Source: Hymenobacter sp. YIM 151858-1
GTDB lineage: Bacteria; Bacteroidota; Bacteroidia; Cytophagales; Hymenobacteraceae
Assembly (NCBI RefSeq): GCF_025979705.1
Contig: NZ_CP110136.1
Location: forward strand, 930,001-994,000
Reading direction: 5' to 3'
DNA length: 64,000 nt
Position numbers and translations under genes: made by a program. Below the pieces are notes generated by a model that saw nothing but the letters and a program-made list of their open reading frames with translations, was not told where the DNA came from and did no database searches. Below are positions 1,079-63,193 of this stretch, in pieces (the stretch's first letter is position 1; each line of letters starts with the position of its first letter).

Positions 1079-1876
1079 TTGTCGACGCGAAAGATAGGAC
1101 TGGCCTTATCGGGAGGAGCGGCCCGCGGCATTGCCCACCTGGGTATGCTGCAAGCCCTGAGCGAGCTGCAACTGCCCATTGGGGCCATGTCGGGGGTGAG
1201 TTCGGGCGGGTTGGCAGCGGTGTTTTTTGCCGCTGGCATTCCGCCGCGCGAGGTGTTGCGCCTGCTGTCCGATACCCGCTTTTTGCGCCTGGTGCGTCCG
1301 GCTTACAAGCGCGGGCTGGTAAACCTGGGCTTGCTCGAGAAGCTGTTTGCTGCTCACCTGCCCGGCAACCAAACCTTTGCCGACCTAGGGATGCCCGTAA
1401 CCTTAGCGGCAACCGATTTGAGCAGCGGCAAAACCGTATTTTTCAACGAAGGCCCGCTGGTGCCGCCGCTGTTGGCCACAGGAGCGGTGCCCGTGCTATG
1501 CCAACCCATTGAGTACCTAGGGCACGTGCTGGTGGATGGGGGCTTGCTCAACAACCTGCCCATCGAGCCGCTGCAGCACCGGCCGGAGCTGGCCTTGGTA
1601 GGCGCGCACACCAACATTGTAAACACCGAGGCACCCATCAGCACCATCCGGCACGTGGCCGAGCGCACCTTTATGCTGGCCATCGGCACCAACACGGCGC
1701 CCCGGCTTAAGCAGTGCGAGCTGGTGCTGCAGCCACCGGAGCTCCGCCGGTTCAGGGTTACGGATTTGCGCCATGCCACCGAGCTGTATGCCATCGGTTA
1801 CGAATACACCCTGAGCCAGGCCGCCGAACTGGAGGCCTTGCTCAGCAAACCCGCGCCCGAGCCAGATTTTGGCTAG
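1079..1876 (+). CDS. Patatin-like phospholipase
   Basis: This 265-residue protein has the three signatures of the bacterial patatin family: the oxyanion-hole loop GGAARG at residues 12-17, the nucleophile elbow GVSSG with Ser41, and the catalytic DGG near residue 152. It lacks a signal peptide and any outer-membrane barrel domain, so it is a soluble cytoplasmic lipase of the RssA/YchK size class. It should hydrolyse acyl esters of phospholipids or related lipids. The frame opens with a TTG codon 16 bases after the metallo-hydrolase stop; the glycine-rich loop lies so close to the N-terminus that no downstream start is possible. A phospholipid acyltransferase gene follows within 40 bases. Confidence 0.88.
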   Translation: MSTRKIGLALSGGAARGIAHLGMLQALSELQLPIGAMSGVSSGGLAAVFFAAGIPPREVLRLLSDTRFLRLVRPAYKRGLVNLGLLEKLFAAHLPGNQTFADLGMPVTLAATDLSSGKTVFFNEGPLVPPLLATGAVPVLCQPIEYLGHVLVDGGLLNNLPIEPLQHRPELALVGAHTNIVNTEAPISTIRHVAERTFMLAIGTNTAPRLKQCELVLQPPELRRFRVTDLRHATELYAIGYEYTLSQAAELEALLSKPAPEPDFG

Positions 1877-1915
1877 CTTTGGCGTCCATTTCCGCATTTC
1901 TTCAACCGCTCCTGT

Positions 1916-2473
1916 ATGAACAGCTTTTGGCTGGCGTTTTCGAAGTTTTGGTTTAAGCTGGTAGGCTGGCGCTTGGCTTCCAGCATTCCGCCCGAAATCC
2001 GGCAAGCAATGATGATTGCTGCCCCGCACACCAGCAACTGGGACTTTATCCATGCCCGAGCCGCTTTTTTTCTGATGCGGCGCAACGTGCGCTTCACCGT
2101 AAAAAAGGAGTGGACGGACATACCCGTGCTGGGCAAGCTGATGATGAGCCTGGGGGCGCTGCCCATCGACCGGAGCAAGAACAACAGCATGGTGGAAGCC
2201 ATGGCCGAGCTGTTCAAGCAGTACCCCGACCTGATTATCCTCATCACGCCGGAAGGCACCCGCAAATACCAGCCCCGCTGGCGCCGCGGTTACTACCACG
2301 CCGCGCAGGCCGCCAACGTGCCCATTTTGCTGGGTTACCTCGACTACAGCAAGAAGGAAGCCGGGGTAGGGCCCGCCGTGTACCCTACCGGTAACTACGA
2401 TGCCGACGAAGAAACCGTCAAGGCCTTTTACCGCACCAAGCAGGGGCGTTTTCCGGAGCAGGGCATCCGGTAG
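1916..2473 (+). CDS. Lysophospholipid acyltransferase (PlsC-like)
   Basis: A 185-residue protein of the glycerol-3-phosphate/1-acylglycerol-3-phosphate acyltransferase superfamily. The catalytic H-x4-D motif is visible as HTSNWD (His38 to Asp43), and the phosphate-binding block appears as PEGTR near residue 118. It transfers an acyl chain to a lysophospholipid or similar acceptor at the inner face of the membrane. It is short for PlsC proper and matches a compact Bacteroidota subgroup that usually lacks a transmembrane anchor, so the acceptor is uncertain. It follows the patatin gene closely on the same strand, which suggests coupled deacylation and reacylation. Confidence 0.82.
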   Translation: MNSFWLAFSKFWFKLVGWRLASSIPPEIRQAMMIAAPHTSNWDFIHARAAFFLMRRNVRFTVKKEWTDIPVLGKLMMSLGALPIDRSKNNSMVEAMAELFKQYPDLIILITPEGTRKYQPRWRRGYYHAAQAANVPILLGYLDYSKKEAGVGPAVYPTGNYDADEETVKAFYRTKQGRFPEQGIR

Positions 2474-2502
2474 GCCGCGGGCCAAAGTCAGCAAGAAATG
2501 GG

Positions 2503-2533
2503 TTGAGGGCCCCGCGCTGCGAGCGTAGCTTTG
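2503..2533 (+). promoter_or_regulatory. Bacteroidota-type promoter
   Basis: TTG at 2503-2505 and TAGCTTTG at 2526-2533 are separated by 20 bases, matching the Bacteroidota -33/-7 consensus (TTG, TAnnTTTG). The -7 box ends 26 bases before the ATG of the AraC/alkyltransferase gene. This is motif evidence only. Confidence 0.5.
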
Positions 2534-2559
2534 TTTGGTAACGCTTAACTAAAACCGCC

Positions 2560-3426: not shown

Positions 3427-3486
3427 ATTGAGCCGCCGGCCTAGGTTGCACCGAAGCTGACAACCGCACCACTTACGCCCACCGCC

Positions 3487-4041
3487 ATGTTCGAAAAGCT
3501 GCAAACCCTACTGTTAATCCTGTTCGGGCTTATCGTGTTTGTGGTGCGCATGTGGCGCAAGGCACAGGAAACGATGCGACGCGAAGCCCAGGAACGGAAA
3601 CTACCGCAGCCTGACAGCCGCCCCGCTACGCGGCCGGTGGTGCGCCCGCCGGGCGCGCCCTCATTCGAGCAGCTGCTGCAGCAAATGAAACAGCAGAACC
3701 AGCCACCGCCCGCTGCGCAACCAGCTTCAGCGCCACCTAGGGCCACGGAGCGCGCTCCGGTAGCCCGCACGCTGGAGGTGCCGCAAGCCTCGTCGCGCAG
3801 CTTGGAGGAAGCCGCTGCCGCGCGCACCGCCCGCAGCCTGGAAACCCCGGTGGCCGCTCCGCGCCGGGCGGCCTCGCTACCTAGGGCCACTGCCACCGCC
3901 GCCAACGATTTCTGGGCGCGCGAAAACCGGCAGGCCTCGCAGCCAACGGTTGCCGCCCACAACATCGCCGCGCGCCTACGCAACCCTGCCGATTTGCGGG
4001 CCGCCTTTGTAATGGCCGAGGTGCTGCAGCGCCGCTTTTAA
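3487..4041 (+). CDS. Small membrane-anchored Pro/Ala/Arg-rich protein, unknown
   Basis: I do not recognise a family. The 184-residue protein starts with one hydrophobic segment (about residues 6-24), followed by a basic stretch and a long low-complexity region rich in Pro, Ala, Arg and Gln (residues 35-145). A short ordered C-terminus, with an alpha-helical RLRNPADLRAAFVMAEVLQRRF segment, closes the protein. The layout suggests a single-pass protein with a disordered spacer and a small C-terminal binding helix. A hairpin lies after its stop, and the next gene is convergent. Codon use resembles the neighbours, which supports it being a real gene. Confidence 0.6.
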   Translation: MFEKLQTLLLILFGLIVFVVRMWRKAQETMRREAQERKLPQPDSRPATRPVVRPPGAPSFEQLLQQMKQQNQPPPAAQPASAPPRATERAPVARTLEVPQASSRSLEEAAAARTARSLETPVAAPRRAASLPRATATAANDFWARENRQASQPTVAAHNIAARLRNPADLRAAFVMAEVLQRRF

Positions 4042-4869: not shown

Positions 4870-5589
4870 TTACCCAGGCAACTGAGCCAGCTCGTGGGCA
4901 ATGTGCACCGTGTGGCAAGCAGCCAGGGCGGCGGTTTCGGTGCGCAGGCGCGTGTGCCCCAACGCCACGGGGCGGATGCCCAGACCTAGGGCCAGCTGTA
5001 TTTCGTCTGGGGTAAAGTCGCCTTCGGGCCCGATAAGGATGCAGCAGCGGTTCCCGGCAGCAGCTACTTGCGCCAGCGAAAGTCGTTCGCCCTCGGCTAG
5101 GTGCGCAATAAAGGTGGTAGCGGGCTCGAGCGTGCGCACCAAAGCGGCAAAATCGGTCAGCTCATCCAGCTGCGGCAGCCAGGCCTGGCCCGATTGCTTC
5201 AGGGCGCTTACGGCAATTCTTTCCAGGCGCTCCAGCTTCAGTTCGCGCCGCTCCGAACGGGCACACCGCACAAACGACAGCCGATCGATGCCCATTTCCG
5301 TGGCTTTTTCCACCAGCCACTCCATGCGGTCGAGGTTTTTAGTGGGGGCCACGGCTACGTGCACGTGGTAGGGGCGACGCGGCACCTGCTGTTGCGTTAC
5401 TATGCGCAGCTGGCAGCGTTTGGCCTCGGCGTCGGCTACTTCGGCCTGGTAAATGCCGCCAGCGCCGTCGATCAGCTCCACGGCGTCGCCTTCGCGCAGG
5501 CGCAGCACCCGTACGGCGTGCTTGCTTTCGTCTTCGGGCAGGGTATGGGTATTGCCGCTAAGGCCAGGAGCGAAGAAAGTATGGGGCAT
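4870..5589 (-). CDS. rsmE: 16S rRNA (uracil-1498-N3)-methyltransferase
   Basis: The 239-residue length and the SPOUT signatures LIGPEGDFTPDE (about residue 190) and LGHTRLRTETAA (about residue 215) identify RsmE, which methylates N3 of U1498 in helix 44 of 16S rRNA using S-adenosylmethionine. The N-terminal PUA-like part (residues 1-75) is present, and the linker contains the expected KNLDRMEWLVEKATEMG. It sits between the S1/P1 nuclease gene (50 bases upstream) and the DUF4159 gene on the same strand, so the three may form one transcript. Confidence 0.95.
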   Translation of the reverse strand: MPHTFFAPGLSGNTHTLPEDESKHAVRVLRLREGDAVELIDGAGGIYQAEVADAEAKRCQLRIVTQQQVPRRPYHVHVAVAPTKNLDRMEWLVEKATEMGIDRLSFVRCARSERRELKLERLERIAVSALKQSGQAWLPQLDELTDFAALVRTLEPATTFIAHLAEGERLSLAQVAAAGNRCCILIGPEGDFTPDEIQLALGLGIRPVALGHTRLRTETAALAACHTVHIAHELAQLPG

Positions 5590-5639
5590 AAAGCAAATGT
5601 AGGGCTGCTGCCAACACCAGGGGGTGCCTAGGTGTCAGA

Positions 5640-6422: not shown

Positions 6423-6659
6423 AACCGGGCTTGAGGAGTGGGAGGAGCAGTAACGGATGAATTTGCAAAGCACGTACAAATCGGCCGGATTCAATAATGC
6501 CCCGGCCAGCGCCTAGGTGGCGGCGGGGGCAGTAAGCTCGGGCAGCTGCCCCTACCCAGGCCCGGCGGGTTGCCAGCTCAGCCATACGATTTAATTGTAT
6601 CGAAGCCACGGAGGGGTGCGTAAAGGAAGGTTTGTATACCACGCTTAAACCCACACCCA

Positions 6660-7853
6660 ATGACACCCAAACTCAAAAAGCTCAAGAATCAGGTAATCGT
6701 GATTACCGGTGCCTCGTCGGGCATCGGGCTGGTTACGGCCCGCATGGCGGCCAAAAAAGGCGCTAAGTTGGTACTGGCCGCCCGCAGCGAAGAGGCCTTG
6801 CGCCGCTTGGTGGAAGAAATCCGGCAGGAGGGCGGCGAGGCTACCTACCTCGCTATCGACGTGAGCGAGCCGACGGCCGCCCGCGCCATTGCCCAAAAGG
6901 CCGTGGCAACGTTCGGCGGCTTCGATACCTGGATCAATAACGCCGGCGTGAGCATTTACGGCAAGGTTGAGGAGGTGCCCATCGAGGACATGCGCCAGCT
7001 TTTTGAGGTGAACTTCTGGGGATTGGTGCACGGCTCGCTCGAAGCCGCCAAGCATTTAAAGCAAAAGGGCGGTGCCATCATCAACGTGGGCAGCATTCTG
7101 TCCGATATCACGGCCATTCTGCAAACCATTTACTCGGCCAGCAAGCACGCCGTAAAGGGCTTTACCGACGGCCTGCGCATGGAGTTGGAAATGGACGGCG
7201 CACCCGTTTCGGTAACGCTTATTCAGCCAGCGGCCATTGATACGCCGTACCCCGTGCACGCCAAAAACTACATGGAGCGCGAGGCCAAGCACGCGCCGCC
7301 CGCCTACGCCCCCGAAACCGTGGCCCGCGCCATTTTGTACGCCTGCACCCGCCCCGAGCGCAGCATCGTGGTGGGCGGCGGCGGCCGCGCGTTCATCAGC
7401 ATGGAGCAGTGGACGCCGCGCCTGCTCGATAAGTTTATGGAAACCGCCTTTGTAAAGCAGGAAAAAGCCGATTACGCCCCGCGCCCCCTGCACCAAAACG
7501 CCCTCGATAAGCCCATGGGCAACCTCGAGGAGCGCGGCAACTACCCCGGCAGCACCCGCGAGACGAGCTTCTACACCCAAGCCGTTACGAGCAAAAGCCC
7601 CGTGCTGAAAACCGCCCTGGCCGTGGGCGCCGGCCTGGCCCTGGCTACCTGGCTCAGCAAAAACCGACAGGCCGGTGGCAACGGCGGCACCGGCACCCGC
7701 ACCGTGTACCCCGAGGGCTACACGCCCAACCGCGCCGGGGCTGGCCGTACCAGCCCGCTGGCCTCGGCCGCCACCGCCAGCAGCAGCCACGACTACGACG
7801 CCACTGGCCACGACCACCGCTACGCCGAAGCGCGCCGCGACGACCTGCCCTAG
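6660..7853 (+). CDS. SDR-family oxidoreductase with C-terminal membrane segment
   Basis: Residues 10-250 form a classical short-chain dehydrogenase: TGASSGIG cofactor loop near residue 18, NNAG near residue 97, and the YSASK active-site Tyr/Lys near residue 161. The remaining 140 residues are unusual for the family: a positively charged linker, one hydrophobic segment (VLKTALAVGAGLALATWL, about 310-327) and a disordered Gly/Thr/His-rich tail. The enzyme may therefore be tethered to a membrane. The substrate is unknown. This SDR subfamily is common in Bacteroidota and Alphaproteobacteria as a stress-type dehydrogenase. A strong terminator follows the stop. Confidence 0.87.
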   Translation: MTPKLKKLKNQVIVITGASSGIGLVTARMAAKKGAKLVLAARSEEALRRLVEEIRQEGGEATYLAIDVSEPTAARAIAQKAVATFGGFDTWINNAGVSIYGKVEEVPIEDMRQLFEVNFWGLVHGSLEAAKHLKQKGGAIINVGSILSDITAILQTIYSASKHAVKGFTDGLRMELEMDGAPVSVTLIQPAAIDTPYPVHAKNYMEREAKHAPPAYAPETVARAILYACTRPERSIVVGGGGRAFISMEQWTPRLLDKFMETAFVKQEKADYAPRPLHQNALDKPMGNLEERGNYPGSTRETSFYTQAVTSKSPVLKTALAVGAGLALATWLSKNRQAGGNGGTGTRTVYPEGYTPNRAGAGRTSPLASAATASSSHDYDATGHDHRYAEARRDDLP

Positions 7854-7874
7854 GTGCTTCCTGGTACTTCGCCG

Positions 7875-8047: not shown

Positions 8048-9019
8048 ATGTCAGACAAAAAAATCATTGCTGTATTTGGCGCTACCGGAGCCCAGGGCGG
8101 CGGCTTGGCTCGGGCCATCCTCGCCGATCCGCAGAGTGAGTTTACGGTACGTGCCATCACGCGGAGCCCCGACTCCGATAAGGCGCGCGAGCTGGCCCGC
8201 CTAGGTGCCGAATTGGCTGCTGCCGATATCGACAACCCGCAGAGCCTGGACCGAGCACTAGCCGGGGCTTATGGAGCGTTTTGCGTTACCAATTTCTGGG
8301 AGCATTTCTCGCCCGAGCGCGAGCTGCAGCAAGCGCGCAACATGGCCGAAGCCGCCAAAGCCGCTGGCGTGCAGCACGTCATCTGGTCGACGCTGGAAGA
8401 TACGCGCCAGTGGGTGCCGCTTTCCGACAACCGCATGCCCACGCTGCAGGGCCATTACAAAGTGCCGCACTTCGATGCCAAAGGCGAGGCCAATCGTTAC
8501 TTCAGCGACCTGGGCGTGCCCACTACCTTTATGCTCACCGCCTTTTACTGGGAGAACTTTATCTACTTCGGCATGGGCGTGCAGCGCAACAACGAGGGCA
8601 AGCTGGTGCTATCCTTGCCATTGGGCGACAAGAAGATGGCGTGCATTGCCTCGGAGGATATTGGCCGCTGTGCGTACGGCATCTTCAGGAAAGGCGCCGC
8701 TGCCATCGGGCAAACCATTGGCATTACCGGCGGGCTGCTCACCGGCTCGGATATGGCTCAAAGCTTCAGCAAAGCCCTAGGCCAGGAGGTAGTGTACAAT
8801 CCCGTGCCGGTAGAAGTTTACCGCAGCTTGGGCTTTCCGGGCGCCGACGACCTAGGCAACATGTTCCAGTTCTACCAGGAGTTTGAAGCGCATTTTGCCG
8901 AAACGCGGCGCGAAGAAGTTGCCCGGGAGCTTAACCCGGCCTTGCAAAACTTCGACAAGTGGCTGGCGCAAAACGCACACCGTTTGCCGGCTCTCAGCCA
9001 AGTAGCGGAACACGCTTAA
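8048..9019 (+). CDS. NmrA-like NAD(P)-binding protein
   Basis: A 323-residue protein with the NmrA/HSCARG-type Rossmann motif GATGAQGGGLARA near residue 12 and the following acidic/basic dinucleotide-binding pattern (ITRSPDS). The lysine of classical extended SDRs (YxxxK) is not evident, which agrees with the NmrA group, whose members act as redox sensors or as NAD(P)H-dependent reductases. Function is not resolved. ATG at 8048 is preferred over a TTG two codons upstream. The gene is monocistronic: a terminator precedes it and a palindromic terminator follows. Confidence 0.85.
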   Translation: MSDKKIIAVFGATGAQGGGLARAILADPQSEFTVRAITRSPDSDKARELARLGAELAAADIDNPQSLDRALAGAYGAFCVTNFWEHFSPERELQQARNMAEAAKAAGVQHVIWSTLEDTRQWVPLSDNRMPTLQGHYKVPHFDAKGEANRYFSDLGVPTTFMLTAFYWENFIYFGMGVQRNNEGKLVLSLPLGDKKMACIASEDIGRCAYGIFRKGAAAIGQTIGITGGLLTGSDMAQSFSKALGQEVVYNPVPVEVYRSLGFPGADDLGNMFQFYQEFEAHFAETRREEVARELNPALQNFDKWLAQNAHRLPALSQVAEHA

Positions 9020-9072: not shown

Positions 9073-9090
9073 GTTTAAAATAACCTAGGG

Positions 9091-10977: not shown

Positions 10978-12408
10978 ATGCAAGTAGCAACCGCTCAGGC
11001 GCCGCCGCCAACCCCGACGAGCTCCAAGCACCCGCCCGGCCTGTATCTGCTGTTCTTCACCGAAATGTGGGAACGGTTCAGCTACTACGGCATGCGTGGT
11101 TTGCTGACGCTGTACCTCACCAAAACCGCCGTGCAGGGCGGCCTGGGCATTTCCGAAGCTAGCGCTACGCTGATTTACGGCTACTTCACGGGCTTCGTGT
11201 ATTTCACGCCCATTATCGGCGGCTACATCGCCGATAAGTACATCGGCCAGCGCCGCGCCATCCTCATCGGTGGTATCACCATGGCCATTGCGCAGCTGTG
11301 CTTGTTTATGCAGCCGGCGCTTTCGACGGAGGCGGCCATTTTTGGCATGCCCTGGCCTACGGCCCTAGGTCTGCTGCTGCTGATTCTGGGCAACGGCTTC
11401 TTCAAGCCGAACATCTCGACCATCGTTGGTAAGCTTTACCAGCAAGGCGACCCGAAGCGCGATGCTGCCTTCACGATTTTCTACATGGGCATCAACGTGG
11501 GCGCGTTCTTCGCTCCGCTGGTGTGCGGCTACCTGGCCGAAGACCTGTTTGCCACCAAAACCGTGATTGATGGCGTTACGCAGGTAAGCAGCTACGGCTT
11601 CCGTTACGGCTTCCTGGCAGCCGGTATTGGCATGATCCTGGGCCAGCTGGCCTTTAACCTCCTGGGTAAAAAGTACCTAGGCGACGTGGGCTTGTACCCC
11701 GAGGGCAAAGGTGCCGACAACAAAACCGTTGAGAAAACCCCGCTGACGAAGGAAGAAACCGACCGCATGGCGGTAATCTTTATCATCACGCTGTTTGTGG
11801 TGTTCTTCTGGGCCGGCTTCGAGCAGGCTGGTTCGTCGCTCACCCTCTACACCGATAAGTACATCAACCGCGAGGTGTTCGGCTTCCTGATTCCGACGTC
11901 GTGGTTCCAGTCGGTAAACCCCGCCTTCATCGTACTGATGGCTCCGCTGGTGGCCGGTGTATGGCTGAGCCTCGGCCGCAAAGGCAAGGACCTGAGCATC
12001 CCCGTAAAAATGGGCTTGGGCATGATCCTGCTCGGTGTGGGCTTCCTGTTCATGGTTGGCGCCGTAATGGAGCGCGGCGGCGACGTGCAAGACCAAACCG
12101 TTAAGGCCAGCATCCTGTGGCTGTTGGCTACCTACTTCTTCCACACCATTGGCGAGCTGTGCCTGTCGCCCATCGGCCTCTCGATGGTGTCGCGCCTCTC
12201 GCCGGTGTCGCTCACTTCGATGCTGATGGGCGTGTGGTTCCTGGCTCCGTTCGTGGCGCAGATTGCCGGTGGCTACATTGCCGCCTACGTGGAAGAGCTG
12301 GGTGCCCTGACGGTGTTTGGCCTGATTGCTGGCTTTGTAATCGTGGCAGGCTTGCTGCTGATTGCCATTGCCAAAAAGCTGTTCCATATGATGCACGGCC
12401 GCGGCTAA
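10978..12408 (+). CDS. POT-family peptide:proton symporter (MFS)
   Basis: From the ATG at 10978 the protein has 476 residues and about 12 to 14 membrane segments. The N-terminal block LYLLFFTEMWERFSYYGMRG is the hallmark of the proton-dependent oligopeptide transporter family, carrying the ExxERFxYY motif. The helix 5 region (FYMGINVGAFFAPLVCGYL) is the second PTR2 signature. It should import di- and tripeptides across the inner membrane. The open frame continues 41 codons upstream, but that extension is not hydrophobic in the expected way and the ATG immediately precedes a typical soluble N-tail. A terminator follows. Confidence 0.92.
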   Translation: MQVATAQAPPPTPTSSKHPPGLYLLFFTEMWERFSYYGMRGLLTLYLTKTAVQGGLGISEASATLIYGYFTGFVYFTPIIGGYIADKYIGQRRAILIGGITMAIAQLCLFMQPALSTEAAIFGMPWPTALGLLLLILGNGFFKPNISTIVGKLYQQGDPKRDAAFTIFYMGINVGAFFAPLVCGYLAEDLFATKTVIDGVTQVSSYGFRYGFLAAGIGMILGQLAFNLLGKKYLGDVGLYPEGKGADNKTVEKTPLTKEETDRMAVIFIITLFVVFFWAGFEQAGSSLTLYTDKYINREVFGFLIPTSWFQSVNPAFIVLMAPLVAGVWLSLGRKGKDLSIPVKMGLGMILLGVGFLFMVGAVMERGGDVQDQTVKASILWLLATYFFHTIGELCLSPIGLSMVSRLSPVSLTSMLMGVWFLAPFVAQIAGGYIAAYVEELGALTVFGLIAGFVIVAGLLLIAIAKKLFHMMHGRG

Positions 12409-12476: not shown

Positions 12477-12488
12477 TGTGCGCCTAGG

Positions 12489-50980: not shown

Positions 50981-53050
50981 ATGAGCACTTCCGCTTCCAA
51001 GATTTACTGCCCCAGCCTTACCGAATACAAGCGTCGCGAAGCGCGCGTGGTGAACATCGGCGACCTGCCCCTAGGTGGCCATTATCCCATTCGGGTGCAG
51101 AGCATGACCACCGTCGATACCATGGATACCATGGGCTCGGTGGAGGAGACGCTGCGCATGGTGGCGGCCGGCTGCGAGTACGTGCGCATCACGGCGCCGA
51201 GCATGAAGGAAGCCCAGAACCTGCTCGAAATCAGGAAGGAACTGCGCAAGCGCGGCTGCACGGTGCCGCTCATTGCCGACATACACTTCACGCCCAACGC
51301 CGCCGAACTGGCTGCGCGCATCGTGGAGAAAGTGCGCGTGAACCCCGGCAACTACGTCGACAAAAAGAAATTCCAGACCATCGAGTACACCGACGCCGAG
51401 TATCAGGGCGAGATTGAGCGTATTCGGGAGCGGTTTCGGCCGCTGGTGCAAATCTGCAAGGAGTACGGCACGGCCATGCGCATCGGCACGAACCACGGGT
51501 CGTTGTCGGACCGCATTCTGTCGCGCTACGGCGATACGCCGCTGGGCATGGTAGAGTCGGCGCTGGAGTTTTTGCGCATCTGCGAAGACGAGAACTACTA
51601 CAACGTGGTGCTCTCGATGAAGGCCTCCAACACGCAAGTGATGGTGCAGGCCTACCGCCTGCTGGTGCAAAAGCTTGCCGCCGAAGGCCTTCAGCCGTAC
51701 CCGCTGCACCTGGGCGTAACCGAAGCCGGCGAAGCCGAAGACGGCCGCATCAAGTCGGCCGTGGGCATTGGCACCCTGCTCGAAGACGGCCTGGGTGACA
51801 CCGTGCGCGTGTCGCTCACGGAGCCGCCCGAAGCCGAAGCGCCCGTGGCCCGCATGCTCATCGACCGCTACACCAACCGCGCCGCCGAGGCCAAACCAAT
51901 TGCCCCGTTGGGGAATGAAGAAGGATTAACGAAGAAGGAAGAGGGGGCTACCGACCCATCCTTCGTCATTCCTCCTTCATCCTTAGCCATTCCCATCGAC
52001 CCGTTCCAGTACCACCGCCGCCACTCGCACGAGGTGCTGAACCTAGGCGGGCAGAACGTGCCGCGCGTGCTGGCCGATATATCGCGCCTACCGCAGCTGG
52101 AGTACGCCGATCTGCGGTGCGTGGGGCACCTGTACTCGGCCTTCCTCGATAAGTTTCAGATGAACGACCTAGGGGCCGACTTCATCTACACCGGCCAGCG
52201 CCCGGTGCCTTTCATGCTGCCCAACGGCCTGAAGGAGCTGGTTGATTACTCGGCCTGGATTGACGGCGGCAAACGCGAAGACCACTACCCGGTGCTCACC
52301 CAAAGCGAGTACGCCGTGGCCGCCGCCAAGCACCCCGAGGCCAACTTCGTGTTCCATAACCTGGAGTCGCTCACCACGGCAGCACTCGAGCAACTGCGCC
52401 ACGACCGCACGGCCGTTGTTATTCTTTACACAGACAACGCCCACGCCATGCCCGAAATCCGCCGGGCTTTCTTCCGGCTGATGAACCACGGCATCACCAA
52501 CCCGGTCATCATCAACCGCCAGTACCCCGAGCAGGCGCCCGAGCAAACGCAGCTCTACGCCGCTACCGATGTGGGTGGCCTGCTGCTCGATGGCCTCGGC
52601 GACTGCGTGGTGCTCAGCACCGAAAAGCTGCCCGATGCCGACCAAGCTACCTGGCTGCAGCGCCTCGATGCGCTAAACCAGCTCAGCTTCGGTATTCTAC
52701 AGGCGGCTCGCACGCGCATGAGCAAAACGGAGTACATCAGCTGCCCGAGCTGCGGCCGTACGCTGTTCGACCTGCCCGAAACCACCGCCATGATTCGCCG
52801 CCGCACCGACCACCTCAAGGGCGTGAAAATCGGCATCATGGGCTGCATCGTGAATGGCCCCGGCGAAATGGCCGATGCCGACTACGGCTACGTAGGCGTG
52901 GGCCGCGGCAAAATTGCCCTGTACCGCGGGCAAGAGGTCATCAAGAAATCGGTGCCCGAAGAAGCTGCCGTTGATGAGTTGATTAACCTGATTCGGGAGG
53001 ACGGGCGGTGGGTTGAGCCCGTGAAGCTGGAGGAGCAGGTAGGAGCGTAA
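50981..53050 (+). CDS. ispG: 4-hydroxy-3-methylbut-2-enyl-diphosphate synthase, long form
   Basis: From ATG 50981 the protein has 689 residues. An N-terminal TIM barrel (PIRVQSMTTVDTMD, residues 37-290) is followed by an inserted domain of about 250 residues, as in plants and Bacteroidota. A C-terminal reductase-like domain ends the protein, with 4Fe-4S cysteines in ISCPSCGRT and GIMGCIVNGPGE. It converts methylerythritol cyclodiphosphate to HMBPP in isoprenoid synthesis. A stretch of about 25 residues near residue 312 is encoded by an imperfect palindrome (51911-51992) and looks like a repeat inserted at a domain boundary. The open frame extends 21 codons upstream. Confidence 0.95.
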   Translation: MSTSASKIYCPSLTEYKRREARVVNIGDLPLGGHYPIRVQSMTTVDTMDTMGSVEETLRMVAAGCEYVRITAPSMKEAQNLLEIRKELRKRGCTVPLIADIHFTPNAAELAARIVEKVRVNPGNYVDKKKFQTIEYTDAEYQGEIERIRERFRPLVQICKEYGTAMRIGTNHGSLSDRILSRYGDTPLGMVESALEFLRICEDENYYNVVLSMKASNTQVMVQAYRLLVQKLAAEGLQPYPLHLGVTEAGEAEDGRIKSAVGIGTLLEDGLGDTVRVSLTEPPEAEAPVARMLIDRYTNRAAEAKPIAPLGNEEGLTKKEEGATDPSFVIPPSSLAIPIDPFQYHRRHSHEVLNLGGQNVPRVLADISRLPQLEYADLRCVGHLYSAFLDKFQMNDLGADFIYTGQRPVPFMLPNGLKELVDYSAWIDGGKREDHYPVLTQSEYAVAAAKHPEANFVFHNLESLTTAALEQLRHDRTAVVILYTDNAHAMPEIRRAFFRLMNHGITNPVIINRQYPEQAPEQTQLYAATDVGGLLLDGLGDCVVLSTEKLPDADQATWLQRLDALNQLSFGILQAARTRMSKTEYISCPSCGRTLFDLPETTAMIRRRTDHLKGVKIGIMGCIVNGPGEMADADYGYVGVGRGKIALYRGQEVIKKSVPEEAAVDELINLIREDGRWVEPVKLEEQVGA
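51911..51992. repeat. Palindromic insertion inside ispG
   Basis: GGGAATGAAGAAGGATTAAC and following bases (51911-51948) face an inverted near-copy (51957-51992, ending CTTAGCCATTCCC). Outer 16 positions match at about 13. The encoded peptide (NEEGLTKKEEG ... SFVIPPSSLA) has no counterpart I know in IspG. Confidence 0.6.
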
Positions 53051-53589: not shown

Positions 53590-54243
53590 ATGATTCAAAC
53601 CGTCATCTTCGACATGGACGGCGTACTCGTTGATACCGAGCCGCTGCACCACGATGCCTTTTTCCGCCACTTTGCCGAGCTGGGCATTCCGATGACGGCC
53701 GAGGAATACGCCACATTCCTAGGTGCTTCTACCCGCAACGTGTACCAGCATCTTAAGCAGGAGTTCGGCCTGGCCGGCGACGTTGAGGAGTTGATGAAGC
53801 GCAAGCGCGAGCTGTTTGCGGTATCGTTCGACGAAGCAGCGGAACTGGATTTGCTGCCCGGGGCGCGCGAGCTGATAGCGGACTTACGCGAGGCGGGCGT
53901 GCCGCTGCAGCTGGCCTCGTCGGCGAGCAAGGAAACCATCAACCGCGTGTTCCGGCGCTTCGGGCTGTACCCGCATTTTGATAACCTGGTGAGCGGCGAG
54001 GACTTTCCGCGCTCCAAACCCGACCCGGCCATTTTCCTACGCGCCGCCGAGCTGGCCGGTGTAGCGCCGCAGCACTGCCTGGTTATCGAAGACTCGCACA
54101 ACGGCGTAACGGCGGCCAAAGCGGCCGGTATGTACTGCATCGGCTACCGCAGCGAGCATTCCGAAGGCCAGGACCTGCACCACGCCGACCAGGTGGTGTC
54201 GCATCTGGGGCAGCTCAGTGCCGCGGCTATTCGGGCGCTGTAA
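53590..54243 (+). CDS. HAD-superfamily phosphatase, beta-phosphoglucomutase-like
   Basis: A 217-residue HAD protein with motif I DMDGVLVDTEP at residue 8, motif II SSASK near residue 116, and motif III/IV SKPDPAIF and VIEDSHNGVTAAKAAG. The alpha-helical cap between residues 18 and 85 is of the beta-PGM type. It dephosphorylates a small sugar phosphate or isomerises it; substrate unknown. It starts 31 bases after the SUKH-like gene. Confidence 0.93.
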   Translation: MIQTVIFDMDGVLVDTEPLHHDAFFRHFAELGIPMTAEEYATFLGASTRNVYQHLKQEFGLAGDVEELMKRKRELFAVSFDEAAELDLLPGARELIADLREAGVPLQLASSASKETINRVFRRFGLYPHFDNLVSGEDFPRSKPDPAIFLRAAELAGVAPQHCLVIEDSHNGVTAAKAAGMYCIGYRSEHSEGQDLHHADQVVSHLGQLSAAAIRAL

Positions 54244-54329
54244 GCACCTAGGGCATCTCTGAGGCTTGGCCTCATTGAGCGGTAGTTGCGTACCAGGCTG
54301 GTACACATCTGCTTGTTAGCGCCACCTGC

Positions 54330-54650
54330 ATGATTGGTCGTCCGCTGAACCTGCCGGAGCTGGGCTTGCTCGTTTACTTGATCCGCAGCGCCCCGCAAGC
54401 GGGGCGCCTGTTGGGCTACCTGCACACCGCCGAGGTAACCGAGCTGAGTGCCAACGGCATCGGCAGCCTACGTTTTAGCAGCCACGTGCCCAACCGACAC
54501 CTAGGCGAGCGAATTGCCAGCACGCAGTTCCTCGACGAAGACGGGGTGCCCGTGTTGGCGGCGCTGTACCTCGATCAGCACGGCGAGCTGTACGAGCTCG
54601 ATTGCTGGAAACCCGACGAAACACCGCTCGGGCGCATCCCGGCTTTTTAG
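54330..54650 (+). CDS. Small protein, DUF6984-like
   Basis: The 106-residue protein reads RPLNLPELGLLVYLIRSAPQ, then GIGSLRFSS, EDGVPVLAALYLDQHGELYELD and WKPDETPLGRIP. I recall this pattern from DUF6984, a family of small soluble proteins often near toxin/immunity genes. Function unknown; the domain name is from memory. Codon use is ordinary. Confidence 0.6.
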   Translation: MIGRPLNLPELGLLVYLIRSAPQAGRLLGYLHTAEVTELSANGIGSLRFSSHVPNRHLGERIASTQFLDEDGVPVLAALYLDQHGELYELDCWKPDETPLGRIPAF

Positions 54651-54784
54651 CGGAGAACGGAGCTGACAGCGTTGGTTTGTGAAAGCGCCTGCATGATTCT
54701 GCGGGCAACGAGAAATGCAGTGCAAACGCCGGGGTTCTACGCTGCCCTTCGCTCTACAAACACATTCAACCTAGGGGAGTGGCG

Positions 54785-56288: not shown

Positions 56289-57355
56289 CCCCGGGGGTAG
56301 GCGAAGCGCTGCCCCAGGCGGCGCAACGGCCGCTCGAGCCAAGACCAGGACACGGAAGCTACTATTAACAATCCAGCGGCCATCAGCAGCAACGCCAGCG
56401 GCGACTGCTCCCACGCGGCCGTAGCATAGGCGGGCGCTACGCGGTGCAACACGCGGTGCAGCAGCACGGGCATAAACAAGTGGTACAGGTATAGCCCGTA
56501 GCTGCGCTGGCCCACCCACACCAGCACCGGGTGGCTAAGCACCTTGCGCGCCGCGGTGGAGGGCGTCAGCAAAATCATGCCCAGCGCGCAGGCGGCCAGC
56601 AGTGCCAACAGGCTGGGCGCCAGTACCAATTCCGGGTGGCCGCCTAGGTGCTTGAGCAGCACGTAAGCGGGCAGCAGTATAGCAAAGCCGATAGCCCAGC
56701 TTCGGAAACCAAACGGTTGGGGCCCTGCCATGGCCAGCCCAAGCAAACCACCTAGGGCGAATACATCGAGGTGGGCGGGGAGCAGCACCAGGCTGAACGA
56801 GGTACCCGTAGCGGCCAGCAAATACCAGCGCAGCACCGGGCCAAGCACCACCAGCGCGCCCAGCAACCAGGGCAGGCGGCGCACGCCAACTAGCAGCACC
56901 AACGCGGGCCAGAGCAGGTAAAACTGTTCTTCCACCGCCAACGACCACCAGTGGCCCACGCCTTCGCCCCAGGCTTGCTTGCTGAAAAACAGGAAGTTAG
57001 CGCCCTGCAGCGCAAACCACCCTAGGTACTCGCGCACGAAGCTGAGGTTGAGGAGCCAGGCCGCGAGCAACGCCGCGTAAAAGGCCGGCAAAATGCGCAG
57101 GCTGCGGCGCAGGTAAAACGGTTTCAGCACCCGCCACGGCTGCGCACTGGCCTGGGCCCGCCGCAGAATGTTGGTAACGAAGTAGCCGCTCAGCACAAAA
57201 AACGTCGTGACGCCCACCGAGCTGGTAGCGGTGCGCACCCACGGTACCGGCAGCCAGTGCTGCGCAATCACCATCAGCACGGGCAGCACCCGAAACGCGT
57301 CGAGCTCGGGGCGGTAGCTGGTACTGGTGGCTGGGCGAGCCGGCAAAGCTGACAT
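56285..57355 (-). CDS. Acyltransferase 3 family membrane protein
   Basis: From ATG 57355 the protein has 356 residues and about ten membrane helices. The N-terminal YRPELDAFRVLPVLMVIAQH, with the catalytic-type R/E-x-H pattern, and GVTTFFVLSGYFVTNIL are the OatA/WecH signatures. It transfers acetyl or other acyl groups onto surface glycans or lipids. The HW-containing MGEGVGHWWSLAVEEQFYLLWP motif is intact. A TTG seven codons upstream is the alternative start. Confidence 0.92.
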   Translation of the reverse strand: MSALPARPATSTSYRPELDAFRVLPVLMVIAQHWLPVPWVRTATSSVGVTTFFVLSGYFVTNILRRAQASAQPWRVLKPFYLRRSLRILPAFYAALLAAWLLNLSFVREYLGWFALQGANFLFFSKQAWGEGVGHWWSLAVEEQFYLLWPALVLLVGVRRLPWLLGALVVLGPVLRWYLLAATGTSFSLVLLPAHLDVFALGGLLGLAMAGPQPFGFRSWAIGFAILLPAYVLLKHLGGHPELVLAPSLLALLAACALGMILLTPSTAARKVLSHPVLVWVGQRSYGLYLYHLFMPVLLHRVLHRVAPAYATAAWEQSPLALLLMAAGLLIVASVSWSWLERPLRRLGQRFAYPRG

Positions 57356-57439
57356 CGGGGAAGGGGCAGAGGGCAAGTGCAGCCGACAAACCTAGGGCAA
57401 AACAAGCAGAACCGCGCAACGGGGCCGCCGGTAAAGCAA

Positions 57440-57473: not shown

Positions 57474-57493
57474 ACTAGCTTGCGCCTAGGTGC

Positions 57494-60277
<2,784 letters not shown>

Positions 60278-60686: not shown

Positions 60687-61096
60687 CTTGCAAGCAAGGG
60701 GTGAGGGATGGGCGCGAACATTCTGTGCGACGCAGGCCAAGGCCTAACCGATTCAGCAGCAAGGAATATCGGTAGCCTCCGAACCTGCTCAAAGGTACAA
60801 ACCCCGGGAGCCGTCGAGGCTTTGGCAATTACGGAAACTTGCCTGCGTGAATTACTGAATTAATACTTGGTAATGGTAGCATCCTATTACCGGCCCTGCC
60901 GCTTGCCGGCTGCGGTGCAATAGGTACGGGGCGAAAATCCGTAGTAGCCGCCTGCCAAAACCCGTAGAAATGCTGCCGCCTGGCCCAAGTACAACGGCCA
61001 CCTTTGTAGCGGCAGGCTGCTCGTCGAAATGCGGCAACTGGTACGACTTCAGGTGTGGTGTCGTGCCACGACGGGTAGCCTGCTTTTTTTATGCCC
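60687..61096. other. Gene-free stretch
   Basis: About 400 bases without a gene I can support. The open frames present lack good starts and codon bias. It holds a poly-T run (61083-61089) and a CCTAGG at 61096. Confidence 0.4.
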
Positions 61097-61837
61097 CTAG
61101 GTGAGCGGGAGCGGGTTTTGACCATCCCAGGTGCCGCGCGTGCCCAGCACCCGAAAGCGGGCAAACATCTCTTCGGAATACCAGCCTTCCTGCCGCGTCT
61201 GCTTAATCACTTCTTTGTGGCGCCCCTCGTGCTGCGGCCCGTAGGCGTACTGGCGCATGTCGGCGGCCGAGCGCCACAGGCTGAACGTAGCTTGCCGGAT
61301 AATCGGCAATTCGCCCAGGCCGATAGCGGCCAACAAGCCCGGCGCCTGCTGCACCGCCCGGCTTACCGGCGGCACCGCCTGCCAAAAACTCCACGACCGC
61401 AGCAGCCGGATGCTGGCCCGCGTGAGCACCGCCACGGGGGCCTCGGGTGGCGCATCGGCCCTGGGTGCGTAGCCGAAGGGGTTGCCGCCATCCCACAGGC
61501 CATGGCCCTGCAAAGGCAGCAAATCGGCCGTCCAGAGCTCCTGGCTGCGCTGCCGGTAGGCCTGCCAATGCGGGTTCCGTTCGAAGAAGTGGGCGGCATC
61601 AGCGGCGTCGTTCCACACGGCCATCAGCCCGTAGCGGCCAAAGTTCGGCTTCAGGCCAAAATCGTAGCCCGAGCCCAGCAGCTTGGCAAAGCGCAGGCCC
61701 GGCACCTTGGCCAGGTGCCGCGGCAGCGTGCCCATCTGGGCCAGCGCCCAGCGGCGGTTTTCGGGCCGAACGGTAATGATGGTGAGCGTGGTAAGCGGCG
61801 AAGTAAGCAAAGCAGGGGGCGCGGTGGAAAACGACAT
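61097..61837 (-). CDS. CrtA-like (spheroidene monooxygenase family) protein
   Basis: The 246-residue protein shows the CrtA pattern: ALAQMGTLPRHLAKVPGLRFAKLLGSG, FGRYGLMAVWND, the GLWDGGNPF segment, AVLTRASIRLLRSWSFW and the end YSEEMFARFRVLGTRGTWDG. CrtA adds keto or hydroxy groups to acyclic carotenoids. No other carotenoid gene is in the window, so the substrate here is open. ATG 61837 is preferred over a TTG three codons upstream. Confidence 0.85.
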   Translation of the reverse strand: MSFSTAPPALLTSPLTTLTIITVRPENRRWALAQMGTLPRHLAKVPGLRFAKLLGSGYDFGLKPNFGRYGLMAVWNDAADAAHFFERNPHWQAYRQRSQELWTADLLPLQGHGLWDGGNPFGYAPRADAPPEAPVAVLTRASIRLLRSWSFWQAVPPVSRAVQQAPGLLAAIGLGELPIIRQATFSLWRSAADMRQYAYGPQHEGRHKEVIKQTRQEGWYSEEMFARFRVLGTRGTWDGQNPLPLT

Positions 61838-61855: not shown

Positions 61856-61881
61856 AAGGGAGAGAAGTGACTCTCTCCCTT
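61856..61881 (-). terminator. Terminator
   Basis: AAGGGAGAGA (61856-61865) pairs with TCTCTCCCTT (61872-61881). On the minus strand a run of six T follows. It ends the transcript of the FMN-binding stress protein. Confidence 0.8.
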
Positions 61882-61912
61882 CGGGTGGATTTTCGGATAA
61901 GGCCGCCCTAGG

Positions 61913-62422
61913 TTACTTGGGCTGCACCTTGGCGTGCTCGTCGCCGGTGGGCTGGTACCGCTCGCCGGTAGCCACGGCCTTTACGTAGCCGAAGGCGTGC
62001 ACCAGCACGTTGCTGGGCTGATCCCAGTATTCGCCTTTATCAATGTCGATGCGAAGCAGCGCGATGTTGGGGTCGTCGGAGCCTTTCGGAAACCAGGTGC
62101 GCAGGCCCTCGCTCCAGAGCTCCTTGATTTTGGCGCGGTCGGTTACCACGCGGGCGCGGCCCGAAATGCTCACGTACAGGTTGTCCTGCGGTTTGGAGTA
62201 GCCCAGGTTCACGTGGCGGTCTTGCTGCACCTCGTCGATTTTGGGCGAGTCCAGCTCCGTGAAAAACCACAAGGTGCCATCGGCCTCGGGCTCGTGGGTG
62301 TACATGGGGCGCGCGTGCAACGAGCCGTCGGGCTCCAGGGTGGTCATCATGGCAATTTTAATGTCCTTGATGCGCTCCACGAGTTTCGTTACGTCGTGGC
62401 TTACGGCAACTCTTTCAGCCAT
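61913..62422 (-). CDS. Pyridoxamine 5'-phosphate oxidase-like stress protein
   Basis: The 169-residue protein has the split-barrel FMN-binding pattern of general stress protein 26: IAMMTTLEPDGSLHARPMYT, LWFFTELDSPKIDEV, VNLGYSKPQDNLYVSISGRA and LWSEGLRTWFPKG. It probably binds a flavin; an oxidase reaction is unproven. Isolated gene with its own terminator. Confidence 0.92.
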   Translation of the reverse strand: MAERVAVSHDVTKLVERIKDIKIAMMTTLEPDGSLHARPMYTHEPEADGTLWFFTELDSPKIDEVQQDRHVNLGYSKPQDNLYVSISGRARVVTDRAKIKELWSEGLRTWFPKGSDDPNIALLRIDIDKGEYWDQPSNVLVHAFGYVKAVATGERYQPTGDEHAKVQPK

Positions 62423-62540
62423 GGGGTCGGGTGTTTGGGTGTAGTCAGATAAGAAGGAGTGTTGGGGCTTACGCGCCGGGGCGGCCCTAGGTTAGCCGGC
62501 CGCGGCAACCGGGCAGCAGCCTTGGCGCTACCTTGCACCC

Positions 62541-63134
62541 GTGAACTTCCTCGCCCACCTGCTGTTATCCGGCCCCGACGACGACCTCATCGTGGGCAAT
62601 TTTGCCGCCGAAGCCGTGCGCGGCCGGGCCGCCGTGGCCGCCTACCCGCCCGCCGTGCAGCGCGGCATCCGGCTGCACCGCCTCATCGATTCCTTTACCG
62701 ATGCCCACCCCGTGGTGCGCCGCAGCACCGCCCGCCTGCGCGCGGCCGGCCTGGGCAAGTGGGCCGGCGTGGTAGCCGATGTGGGCTACGACCACCTGCT
62801 GGCCCGCCACTTTGCCCGCTACCACTACCGCCCCGCCGAGCCGTTGCCCGCCTTCGCGCAGCGCATGTACGCCGTGCTGCAGGCCCGCCGAGCCGAACTG
62901 CCCGAACGCCTGCAGCACCTGCTGGGCTACATGCGCCGCGACGATTGGCTGAGCAATTACGCCCGCCCCGAAGGCCTTGCACGGGCGCTCCTAGGTCTGA
63001 GCCGGCGGGTGCCGGGCGCGGAGGTGCTGGCCACCGGCGCGGCGGCGTTTCTGGCTGATATTGATGCTTATGAGCGGGACTTTGCGGAGTTCTGGCCCCA
63101 GCTGCTGGCCGCGGTGCAGGCCGAGCTAACCTAG
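62541..63134 (+). CDS. Acyl-carrier-protein phosphodiesterase-like protein
   Basis: A 197-residue HD-like protein beginning with GTG: MNFLAHLLLSGPDDDLIVGNFAAEAVRG, then RGIRLHRLIDSFTDAHPVVR, the DUF479/AcpH metal-site pattern (His, HR-x-D-x-x-D). AcpH removes 4'-phosphopantetheine from acyl carrier protein. Since no ATG lies nearby and the family starts exactly here, GTG is the start. Confidence 0.9.
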   Translation: MNFLAHLLLSGPDDDLIVGNFAAEAVRGRAAVAAYPPAVQRGIRLHRLIDSFTDAHPVVRRSTARLRAAGLGKWAGVVADVGYDHLLARHFARYHYRPAEPLPAFAQRMYAVLQARRAELPERLQHLLGYMRRDDWLSNYARPEGLARALLGLSRRVPGAEVLATGAAAFLADIDAYERDFAEFWPQLLAAVQAELT

Positions 63135-63193
63135 GGCCCGGGCCCCGGTTGTATACTTGCTCCCGAAAAACCCGCCCTACCAACCGCCCCGCC

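Follow-up and report, generated by a model that had tools for sequence, protein, structure and literature searches.

We confirmed that the hexamer CCTAGG is over-represented across the whole of this Hymenobacter genome, far beyond chance, and found that it forms an oriented word, ACCTAGG(G/C), rather than a plain palindrome. We give about even odds to the view that this word tags DNA as self within a lineage, much as a DNA uptake sequence does. In its wider form, to which we lean slightly less than evenly, Hymenobacteraceae would have a pilus-free, sequence-specific DNA uptake that evolved independently of that in Proteobacteria, with at least five word dialects, each serving as a genome-wide watermark of own-lineage DNA. 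Support read from the genomes comes from the orientation and density of the word, its sporadic and largely dialect-exclusive spread, its retention within dialects, and its scarcity in plasmid-like contigs and islands.

Within the 64-kb window (the whole stretch of DNA that was analyzed) there were 81 copies of CCTAGG, while base composition predicts 21; the original prediction had put these figures at about 80 and about 20. Dinucleotide shuffles of the window (n = 100) yielded a mean of 13.1 copies and a maximum of 25. The window contained 107 CTAG tetramers, 26 of them outside the CCTAGG context, in line with the 25 to 30 that had been estimated. Comparison of the site list with the open reading frames placed no CCTAGG in the genes that the original prediction called groEL, pckA, and glnN. 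The expected genome-wide excess was also found: the 4.62-Mb genome has 5,325 copies of CCTAGG versus 75 of the reversed word GGATCC, a contrast that is overstated because GGATCC is itself avoided in this group. Under an order-3 Markov model, which had been proposed as a check, ACCTAGG was observed 430 times versus 42.8 expected in 340 kb. A maximal-order Markov model gave a contrary result, with 69 CCTAGG expected versus 81 observed in the window, but that model is built on counts of CCTAG, CTAG, and CTAGG that are dominated by the site itself.

The site had been described as palindromic, yet an A was present on exactly one flank at 79 of the 81 sites in the window and on neither flank at the other 2. 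A sample of 1,004 sites from the same chromosome had the A on one side in 931 cases, on both sides in 14, and on neither in 59. The sites of the window are given below with their strands.

1383..1389, plus, ACCTAGG site
1515..1521, plus, ACCTAGG site
3440..3446, minus, ACCTAGG site
3735..3741, plus, ACCTAGG site
3879..3885, plus, ACCTAGG site
4984..4990, plus, ACCTAGG site
5627..5633, minus, ACCTAGG site
6512..6518, minus, ACCTAGG site
7849..7855, minus, ACCTAGG site
8200..8206, minus, ACCTAGG site
8776..8781, no strand, CCTAGG without flanking A (CCCTAGGC)
8850..8856, plus, ACCTAGG site
9083..9089, plus, ACCTAGG site
11364..11370, minus, ACCTAGG site
11675..11681, plus, ACCTAGG site
12483..12489, minus, ACCTAGG site
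12660..12666, plus, ACCTAGG site
12948..12954, minus, ACCTAGG site, left half of inverted pair with 12988..12994 (start-to-start spacing 40)
12988..12994, plus, ACCTAGG site, right half of inverted pair with 12948..12954
15289..15295, minus, ACCTAGG site
16137..16143, minus, ACCTAGG site
16616..16622, plus, ACCTAGG site
17799..17805, minus, ACCTAGG site
17875..17881, minus, ACCTAGG site
18084..18090, plus, ACCTAGG site
18312..18318, plus, ACCTAGG site
19258..19264, plus, ACCTAGG site
20916..20921, no strand, CCTAGG without flanking A (CCCTAGGC)
21793..21799, minus, ACCTAGG site
22587..22593, plus, ACCTAGG site
23763..23769, plus, ACCTAGG site
23923..23929, plus, ACCTAGG site
25123..25129, plus, ACCTAGG site
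26044..26050, minus, ACCTAGG site
26167..26173, minus, ACCTAGG site
27358..27364, minus, ACCTAGG site
31630..31636, minus, ACCTAGG site, left half of inverted pair with 31655..31661 (start-to-start spacing 25)
31655..31661, plus, ACCTAGG site, right half of inverted pair with 31630..31636
31699..31705, minus, ACCTAGG site, left half of inverted pair with 31723..31729 (start-to-start spacing 24)
31723..31729, plus, ACCTAGG site, right half of inverted pair with 31699..31705
33075..33081, minus, ACCTAGG site
34977..34983, minus, ACCTAGG site
35185..35191, plus, ACCTAGG site
36315..36321, minus, ACCTAGG site
36390..36396, minus, ACCTAGG site
36900..36906, plus, ACCTAGG site
37017..37023, minus, ACCTAGG site
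37168..37174, minus, ACCTAGG site
38384..38390, minus, ACCTAGG site
38957..38963, minus, ACCTAGG site
39645..39651, plus, ACCTAGG site
41562..41568, plus, ACCTAGG site
42168..42174, minus, ACCTAGG site
42888..42894, plus, ACCTAGG site
45573..45579, minus, ACCTAGG site
46227..46233, plus, ACCTAGG site
47043..47049, minus, ACCTAGG site
47287..47293, minus, ACCTAGG site
47382..47388, minus, ACCTAGG site
47846..47852, minus, ACCTAGG site
48137..48143, minus, ACCTAGG site
48988..48994, plus, ACCTAGG site
50831..50837, minus, ACCTAGG site
51070..51076, minus, ACCTAGG site
52041..52047, plus, ACCTAGG site
52167..52173, plus, ACCTAGG site
53718..53724, minus, ACCTAGG site
54246..54252, plus, ACCTAGG site
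54499..54505, plus, ACCTAGG site
54769..54775, plus, ACCTAGG site
56643..56649, minus, ACCTAGG site
56750..56756, plus, ACCTAGG site
57021..57027, minus, ACCTAGG site
57390..57396, plus, ACCTAGG site
57485..57491, minus, ACCTAGG site
58455..58461, minus, ACCTAGG site
61096..61102, minus, ACCTAGG site
61907..61913, minus, ACCTAGG site
62486..62492, minus, ACCTAGG site
62990..62996, minus, ACCTAGG site
63129..63135, plus, ACCTAGG site

The core of the word is sharp, with no clear enrichment of single mismatches inside it. ACCTAGG occurs within and between genes and in both orientations at more than 1 per kb, or about one every 700 to 800 bases on either strand; the HIP-like density attributed to CCTAGG held up. 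The even spread claimed for it did not, as the spread was random (mean of 25.0 and variance of 24.2 sites per 20 kb). Orientation had no strong bias with respect to gene strand (280/610) or chromosome position (361/790 and 92/170, with replication arms assumed).

Among 297 genomes, CCTAGG numbered 5,325 to 8,806 in seven and 1,209 to 2,331 in four; 285 of the remaining 286 had fewer than 900. Five other congeners had 123 to 249. The word has been gained or lost in a nearly all-or-none fashion between close relatives, at thousands of sites. The proposed count across related genomes was high in some (7/297), and other Hymenobacteraceae iterate other words. In Hymenobacteraceae (n = 180), TAGGCCA reached 4,871 to 7,638 copies in 4 genomes, and no other genome exceeded 1,361. 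AGTATAA exceeded 2,500 copies in 23 of the 180, all from one genus, with a maximum of 8,049 and the next genome at 2,119. With the further iterated words GGTATAG and ACTATAG, there were five dialect words (ACCTAGG, TAGGCCA, AGTATAA, GGTATAG, and ACTATAG). In genes, on-dialect words exceeded the codon-shuffled expectation 5- to 24-fold; between genes, they exceeded an order-2 Markov model 5- to 21-fold. Observed/expected ratios for off-dialect words were mostly near 1. The words were largely, but not wholly, mutually exclusive among genomes: L069 and L075 each had two related words, and G137 had two flank forms. On a LeuS tree, all word labels together required 8 changes versus 16.2 when shuffled, and GGTATAG formed one clade. 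The ACCTAGG label alone was scattered rather than clustered, requiring 4 changes versus 4.8 (77 of 500 shuffles were as low).

At orthologous positions, leucine CTA was kept at 147 of 171 motif codons versus 58 of 218 other CTA codons, so the suggested comparison with synonymous codons came out in favor of conservation. Between Pontibacter genomes with AGTATAA, that word was kept at 36/40 and 24/36 positions (background, 55% and 28%). AGGTATA was kept at 13/20 and 19/40 (background, 19% and 20%) but across dialects at only 6/54 (background, 17%). Retention of the whole hexamer (262/345 and 262/379) was above the mean of 52%, though other words attain 77 to 78%. Overall, retention of words was found chiefly between genomes of the same dialect. 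Word density also dropped from 1.25 per kb on the chromosome to 0.085 per kb in contigs C2 and C3 (22 sites in 258.2 kb together), and chromosome stretches near 1.07-1.14 and 1.16-1.19 Mb were nearly word-free. Two plasmid-like contigs and the islands thus contain almost none of the word, with their nature judged from contig size and word density rather than from genes.

If the word is an uptake signal, a putative surface reader would favor DNA with oriented ACCTAGG(G/C), and DNA containing ACCTAGGG would be taken up better than DNA with a scrambled word. Like DNA would be taken up and recombined more often, alleles with the word would slowly displace alleles without it, and the endpoint would be one word per ~700 to 800 bases on either strand. 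A change of reader would then change the word and give rise to dialects. Three points here are inferred: a reader acting as a receptor for DNA uptake, competence of the word-bearing bacteria, and accumulation through biased uptake instead of per-site selection. ComEC (PF03772) was found in all 27 genomes tested, word-free ones included, and did not separate these from word-bearing genomes. No PF00437 motor (type IV pilus or type II secretion) scored above the cutoff in the 27 genomes, although 7 had weak subthreshold matches. A ComP-like pilus reader, the type used by known uptake systems, is therefore probably absent; our search yielded no candidate reader gene. We know of no competence in Hymenobacteraceae. 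Riemerella, also in the Bacteroidota, is described as transforming with ComEC and DprA together with outer-membrane proteins that differ from those of the well-known machinery (PMC8459023).

The DNA uptake sequences (DUS) of Neisseriaceae and the uptake signal sequences (USS) of Pasteurellaceae are among the closest comparisons. To our knowledge, uptake words with dialects are known from these two proteobacterial families only, and pilus receptors are known or proposed in both (ComP and the proposed ComN). DUS are oriented words present at ~1 per kb that form inverted pairs at terminators and are scarce in foreign DNA, and these features are shared here. USS combine a strong core with weak flanking positions that are AT-rich tracts, whereas the additional element here, confined to Solirubrum, is a mirrored half-site lying 26 nt upstream. 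The same two families are named in PMC1939737. Pasteurellaceae also have a short over-represented word, there of 9 bp (PMC1626085). According to PMC3630211, Neisseriaceae likewise have over-represented short words, dialects between relatives, and a strict short core, but 10-mers were searched there versus the 7- to 8-bp words of Hymenobacteraceae. In that account, DUS are bound by the type IV minor pilin ComP (PMC3630211), whereas no pilus motor scored above the cutoff in the 27 genomes tested here. Uptake is proven in Neisseriaceae and predicted here, and ACCTAGG does not mark one clade. In agreement with the original prediction, the open-access literature that we searched contained no description of such words for the family or the phylum. 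If upheld, the uptake reading would add a new instance of DNA self tags in Bacteroidota, and a third, independent set would show that DNA self-recognition evolves repeatedly. The reader could then be sought by comparing genomes with and without a dialect, and adding the word to constructs may help to transform environmental bacteria that resist manipulation. Whatever the reader, words that come and go at thousands of sites in a nearly all-or-none way between relatives are a natural experiment on word origin.

The word could instead be bound by an abundant chromosomal protein (a nucleoid, segregation, or recombination factor, including Chi-like signals) and be kept by weak per-site selection, with specificity shifts between lineages having made the dialects. 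We consider this unlikely but deserving of weight. The strong codon-level retention agrees with it, and all of the retained patterns would also fit a binding site under selection. In Solirubrum, the mirrored weak half-site (CTGCC at -27 in 62 of 1,338 sites versus 2.8 expected) suggests a two-fold complex, although none was seen in the other dialects sampled, where sites are fewer. In 10 cases, two of them orthologous repeats, words also formed inverted pairs spaced exactly 32 apart. Chi and KOPS are orientation-biased signals, and the lack of a strong orientation bias by position (with arms assumed) or gene strand is unlike either. The loss and gain of sites by the thousand among close relatives and the near absence of the word from two plasmid-like contigs of the same assembly also argue against a chromosomal binding site. 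We regard as rather improbable a HIP-like accumulation, in which a DNA methyltransferase and methylation-directed mismatch-repair bias (Elhai 2015), with a different enzyme per lineage, would build up the word. Its density resembles that of HIP1 and alternate HIPs (~1 per kb), and words appear sporadically and replace one another in some genomes, as in cyanobacteria (PMC4390886). HIPs in that account are palindromes accompanied by a methyltransferase that can modify them (PMC4390886). H. cavernae does prefer a palindrome, ACCTAGGT (51/95), but the words of most dialects are oriented and nonpalindromic. Among the seven high-CCTAGG genomes, PF00145 (C5-methyltransferase) was missing from five, PF01555 from three, PF02086 from all seven, and Vsr from five, and the methylation or Vsr driver originally suggested is unsupported as far as tested. 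G007 lacks a large methyltransferase of G005 that was read as MmeI-like, whereas many word-free genomes have it. As a common factor, these three methyltransferase families and the MmeI-like enzyme are excluded by their distribution, although a different enzyme could act in each lineage.

A context-dependent mutation or repair bias without any reader, such as C to T in CCCAGG/CCTGGG, seems very improbable. Between G000 and G005, CCTAGG was most often exchanged with CCCAGG or CCTGGG (84 exchanges), and CCTGGG was depleted in the synonymous frame in genes (379 versus 542), more so than in word-free groups (153 versus 189 and 144 versus 182). Yet no synonymous step is more common than CCTGGG to CCTAGG, and the exchange index ranked only 30th among 526 contexts. 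Between genes, where sites are densest, CCCAGG/CCTGGG was not depleted (125 versus 106). Such a bias is also at odds with the retention of existing sites beyond that of comparable codons, with the word-poor plasmid-like contigs of the same genome, and with the lack of a C5-methyltransferase common to high-CCTAGG genomes. To ordinary codon or codon-pair preference (Leu-Gly, Pro-Arg) we assign next to no credence. Genic sites do fall in the frames that had been predicted (42 of 48 as C-CTA-GG and 6 as CCT-AGG). But a synonymous-codon shuffle of a 404-kb sample, bearing on the codon-pair bias that had been named as a possible refutation, gave 30.6 CCTAGG expected in genes versus 341 observed, and observed/expected ratios in G000 were 11 for CCTAGG and 24 for ACCTAGG; codon or amino-acid pair bias therefore does not explain CCTAGG. 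The one-sided flanking A argues against codon preference as well, and the reading is refuted by the intergenic excess, with CCTAGG denser between genes than within them.

To characterize the excess of CCTAGG, we counted the hexamer in the window and across the genome of Hymenobacter sp. YIM 151858-1. The window contains 81 sites, or 3.9 times the number expected from base composition, and none of 100 dinucleotide shuffles of the window reached that count. CTAG in any other context was found only 26 times. The original prediction, which had described an over-represented hexamer and about 25 to 30 other CTAG tetramers, was therefore accurate on both points. Pattern searches, which we used for all whole-genome word counts, returned 5,325 copies of CCTAGG in the genome and 75 copies of the reversed word GGATCC, a contrast word that is itself avoided by this group of bacteria. 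Under a maximal-order Markov model, 69 of the 81 window sites are expected, which on its face argues against an excess, but the prediction lies so near the observed count because the model's inputs are the CCTAGG site itself. Within genes, called with a small script of our own, we observed 341 sites where a synonymous-codon shuffle predicted 30.6 (404 kb). Codon use therefore does not explain the excess, and the suggested codon-pair explanation fails. Furthermore, the density of sites was higher between genes (295 in 140 kb) than within them (639 in 665 kb). The sites were distributed at random (mean of 25.0 and variance of 24.2 per 20 kb) rather than evenly, as had been supposed.

The comparison with HIP1, the iterated palindrome of cyanobacteria, did not hold for the palindromic form. 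In 804 kb of the chromosome, an A stands on exactly one side of 931 of 1,004 CCTAGG sites (on both sides of 14 and on neither side of 59), and the same is true of 79 of the 81 window sites. The word is therefore an oriented ACCTAGG rather than a HIP1-like palindrome. The base after it is G or C (ACCTAGGG, 595; ACCTAGGC, 265; ACCTAGGA, 71; ACCTAGGT, 14; same 804 kb), with a further weak preference for (G)C upstream and C downstream. Single-mismatch words were enriched only at the ends of the core. Inside it, we saw no enriched near-misses beyond mild values (e.g., 1.67 for ACCCAGG and 4.8 for AACTATAA), suggesting that the core of a putative reader is strict. A weak mirrored half-site lies upstream, at positions −25 to −21, in our genome and separately in the related, word-bearing genome G005; when the two were pooled, CTGCC occurred at −27 in 62 of 1,338 sites versus 2.8 expected. 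Full inverted pairs of ACCTAGG are concentrated at start-to-start distances of 17, 24, and 32 (4, 5, and 10 cases, in which one 17 and two 32s are the same locus in both genomes). By eye, a pair spaced 17 and its counterpart in G005 form a stem with a T-run after it, and hairpins resembling terminators lie between the halves of several wider pairs. Orientation was near even, with slight leans, relative to gene strand (280/610, P = 0.047) and, with replication arms assumed, to chromosome position (361/790, P = 0.017; 92/170). Flank and conservation statistics cover 404 to 804 kb of our genome, 320 kb of G005, 240 kb of the word-free congener G002, and 20 to 83 kb of others. Most own-genome statistics exclude the island piece L006 and pieces of the contigs C2 and C3; a few included them, and one included L006. 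Two pieces, L025 (2.5 kb of genome G007) and L230, were left out of the analysis.

The word is nearly all-or-none among related genomes. Of 297 genomes including our own, seven carry 5,325 to 8,806 copies of CCTAGG and four carry 1,209 to 2,331, while all but one of the remaining 286 have fewer than 900 (the exception, from a different family, has 1,349); five congeners have 123 to 249 each. Our organism is close to Solirubrum puertoriconensis, which has the same word and a LeuS that is 98% identical. The seven high genomes have the core in common but not all of the flanks: G058 prefers CCCTAGG, G137 uses both forms, and H. cavernae prefers ACCTAGGT. The four intermediates bear TAGGCCA, which overlaps CTAGG, in 4,871 to 7,638 copies; none of the 176 remaining genomes searched has more than 1,361. 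Samples of Pontibacter have the words AGTATAA, GGTATAG, and ACTATAG. Of 180 genomes, 23 carry more than 2,500 copies of AGTATAA; these belong to a single genus, and their maximum is 8,049 in 5.2 Mb, where the reversed word occurs 276 times. One genome follows at 2,119, and several others lie at 1,100 to 1,900. In a cross table of nine words and twelve groups, each word-bearing group showed enrichment of its own word, by 5- to 24-fold within genes and by 5- to 21-fold in the sequence between them, and words of other groups were mostly near 1, a second ground for rejecting codon bias. G137, P. fetidus, and an uncultured Pontibacter were mixed. In 33 loci sampled beyond the family, we saw no enrichment of any of the five dialect words. 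Mapped onto a 44-row LeuS tree, word labels taken together required 8 changes versus a shuffled mean of 16.2. The ACCTAGG label alone required 4 (at least 3 are forced), no better than the shuffled 4.8, and so has been repeatedly gained or lost. Among the open-access papers listed in our searches, we found no description of such a word in Hymenobacter or the Bacteroidota, in line with what had been stated for this group.

The word is scarce in parts of the genome. C2 and C3 together hold 22 CCTAGG sites in 258.2 kb (C3 was read up to its last 856 bases), and two stretches of the chromosome, at about 1.066 to 1.138 Mb and 1.160 to 1.187 Mb, are nearly word-free, with fairly sharp borders and normal density alongside. 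We infer that C2 and C3 are plasmids and that the stretches are islands; foreign DNA seems to lack the word. Word density could chart recently gained DNA at kilobase resolution.

Sites appear to arise through point change rather than insertion, since none of 29 aligned sites was common to G002, where a variety of hexamers close in sequence to the word stand at the aligned positions. Once present, sites tend to be kept. Between our genome and G005 (87.7% identical), 262 of 345 were retained, and 262 of 379 in the reverse direction; hexamers of equal composition were retained at 52%, the best of them at 77 to 78%. The most important control uses synonymous codons: leucine CTA within the word was still CTA in 147 of 171 cases versus 58 of 218 elsewhere (P = 2 × 10⁻³³), and CTA preceded by C but with no GG behind it was kept in 6 of 56. 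Two small classes blur this picture, with 11 of 13 kept both for CTA-GG without a preceding C and for CCTAGG without a flanking A. Between genes the contrast is weaker than in codons (50/80 retained versus 47% for all hexamers, some of them higher). In agreement with this, among Pontibacter sharing a dialect, AGTATAA was kept in 36 of 40 and 24 of 36 cases (background, 55 and 28%) and AGGTATA in 13 of 20 and 19 of 40 (background, 19 and 20%). Across dialects, AGGTATA was kept in 6 of 54 (background, 17%).

A methyltransferase has been proposed as the driver of HIPs (PMC4390886), and the original prediction had likewise raised a methylation target, with an orphan methyltransferase or a Vsr-like gene. 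For the enzyme families searched, the distribution argues against a common driver of this kind. Of the seven high genomes, only two encode PF00145 (C5-methyltransferase), only four encode PF01555, and none encodes PF02086 (D12); Vsr occurs in two (our genome and H. cavernae) and in 83 of 180 genomes overall. The word-bearing G005 has none of the four. A search of G005 and G137 with a strict pattern, which we take to represent motif IV and which may miss enzymes, marked 11 places. By eye, we read the surrounding proteins as type I HsdM, PrmC- and rRNA-type enzymes, and chance hits, along with an MmeI-like enzyme in both genomes and one more large methyltransferase in G137 (names are ours). The MmeI-like enzyme of G005 was rejected as a driver, as it does not track the word: 111 of 180 genomes match it at an E value of 0.001, many weakly, and G007 lacks it. 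No enzyme common to word-bearing genomes was found among these five candidates. Deamination of 5-methylcytosine in CCCAGG was rejected on the absence of a C5-methyltransferase from five high genomes and because CCCAGG is not depleted intergenically, and mutation bias toward the word is at odds with the intergenic counts and with retention.

The word is short and oriented, occurs about once per kilobase, and has a strict core; it comes in dialects, is retained mainly between genomes that share one, is nearly missing from the plasmid-like contigs and putative islands, and forms some inverted pairs at terminators. This combination is that of DNA uptake sequences, and by this analogy we give roughly even chances that the word works like one. 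Dialects of such sequences are described for Neisseriaceae (PMC3630211). The ComEC channel was present in 27 of 27 genomes, word-bearing or not, and near comEC of our genome we saw no candidate reader in the gene list or among the N-terminal residues of nine predicted proteins. In Riemerella, also of the Bacteroidota, transposon mutants implicate ComEC, DprA, and proteins unlike the well-known machinery in transformation (PMC8459023), and so the phylum may have a different route. The main rival, that a chromosomal binding protein keeps the word in place, would fit both the mirrored half-site and the strong retention; we consider it unlikely, and favor the uptake-like role.

Several observations were incidental. 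Our chromosome has a Vsr gene at a distance of about 10.5 kb from a C5-methyltransferase (3.010 to 3.022 Mb). CCCAGG or CCTGGG stands in our genome where G005 has CCTAGG in 62 cases, with 22 in reverse, as if sites were eroding through Vsr-type repair. Among the papers listed for CCTAGG are two on bacterial methylomes (PMC7988955 and PMC12016153). GGATCC is nearly absent (0 to 30 per genome) from many genomes of genus g5, with mostly 50 to 330 in others, a second bimodality that does not track CCTAGG and looks like restriction avoidance. TCGCGCA and CATTGCC, the top words in word-poor Hymenobacter, were rejected as dialects: in the window and in Hymenobacter loci, they are enriched in genes and little between them, and therefore probably reflect coding, codon-pair effects. 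In H. sediminis and H. glacieicola, CTACCCC is enriched and may be a weak further dialect. CTCAAAG, from two Belliella loci, was rejected, being partly a local array with repeats that sits at one end of the locus (near 21.1 to 21.7 kb of L100 and 21.6 to 22.0 kb of L102) and rare in three other Belliella. Finally, GTAGAGACGC-like words are highly repeated in some Hymenobacter loci (L040, L045, and L053), possibly as a dispersed or tandem repeat family.
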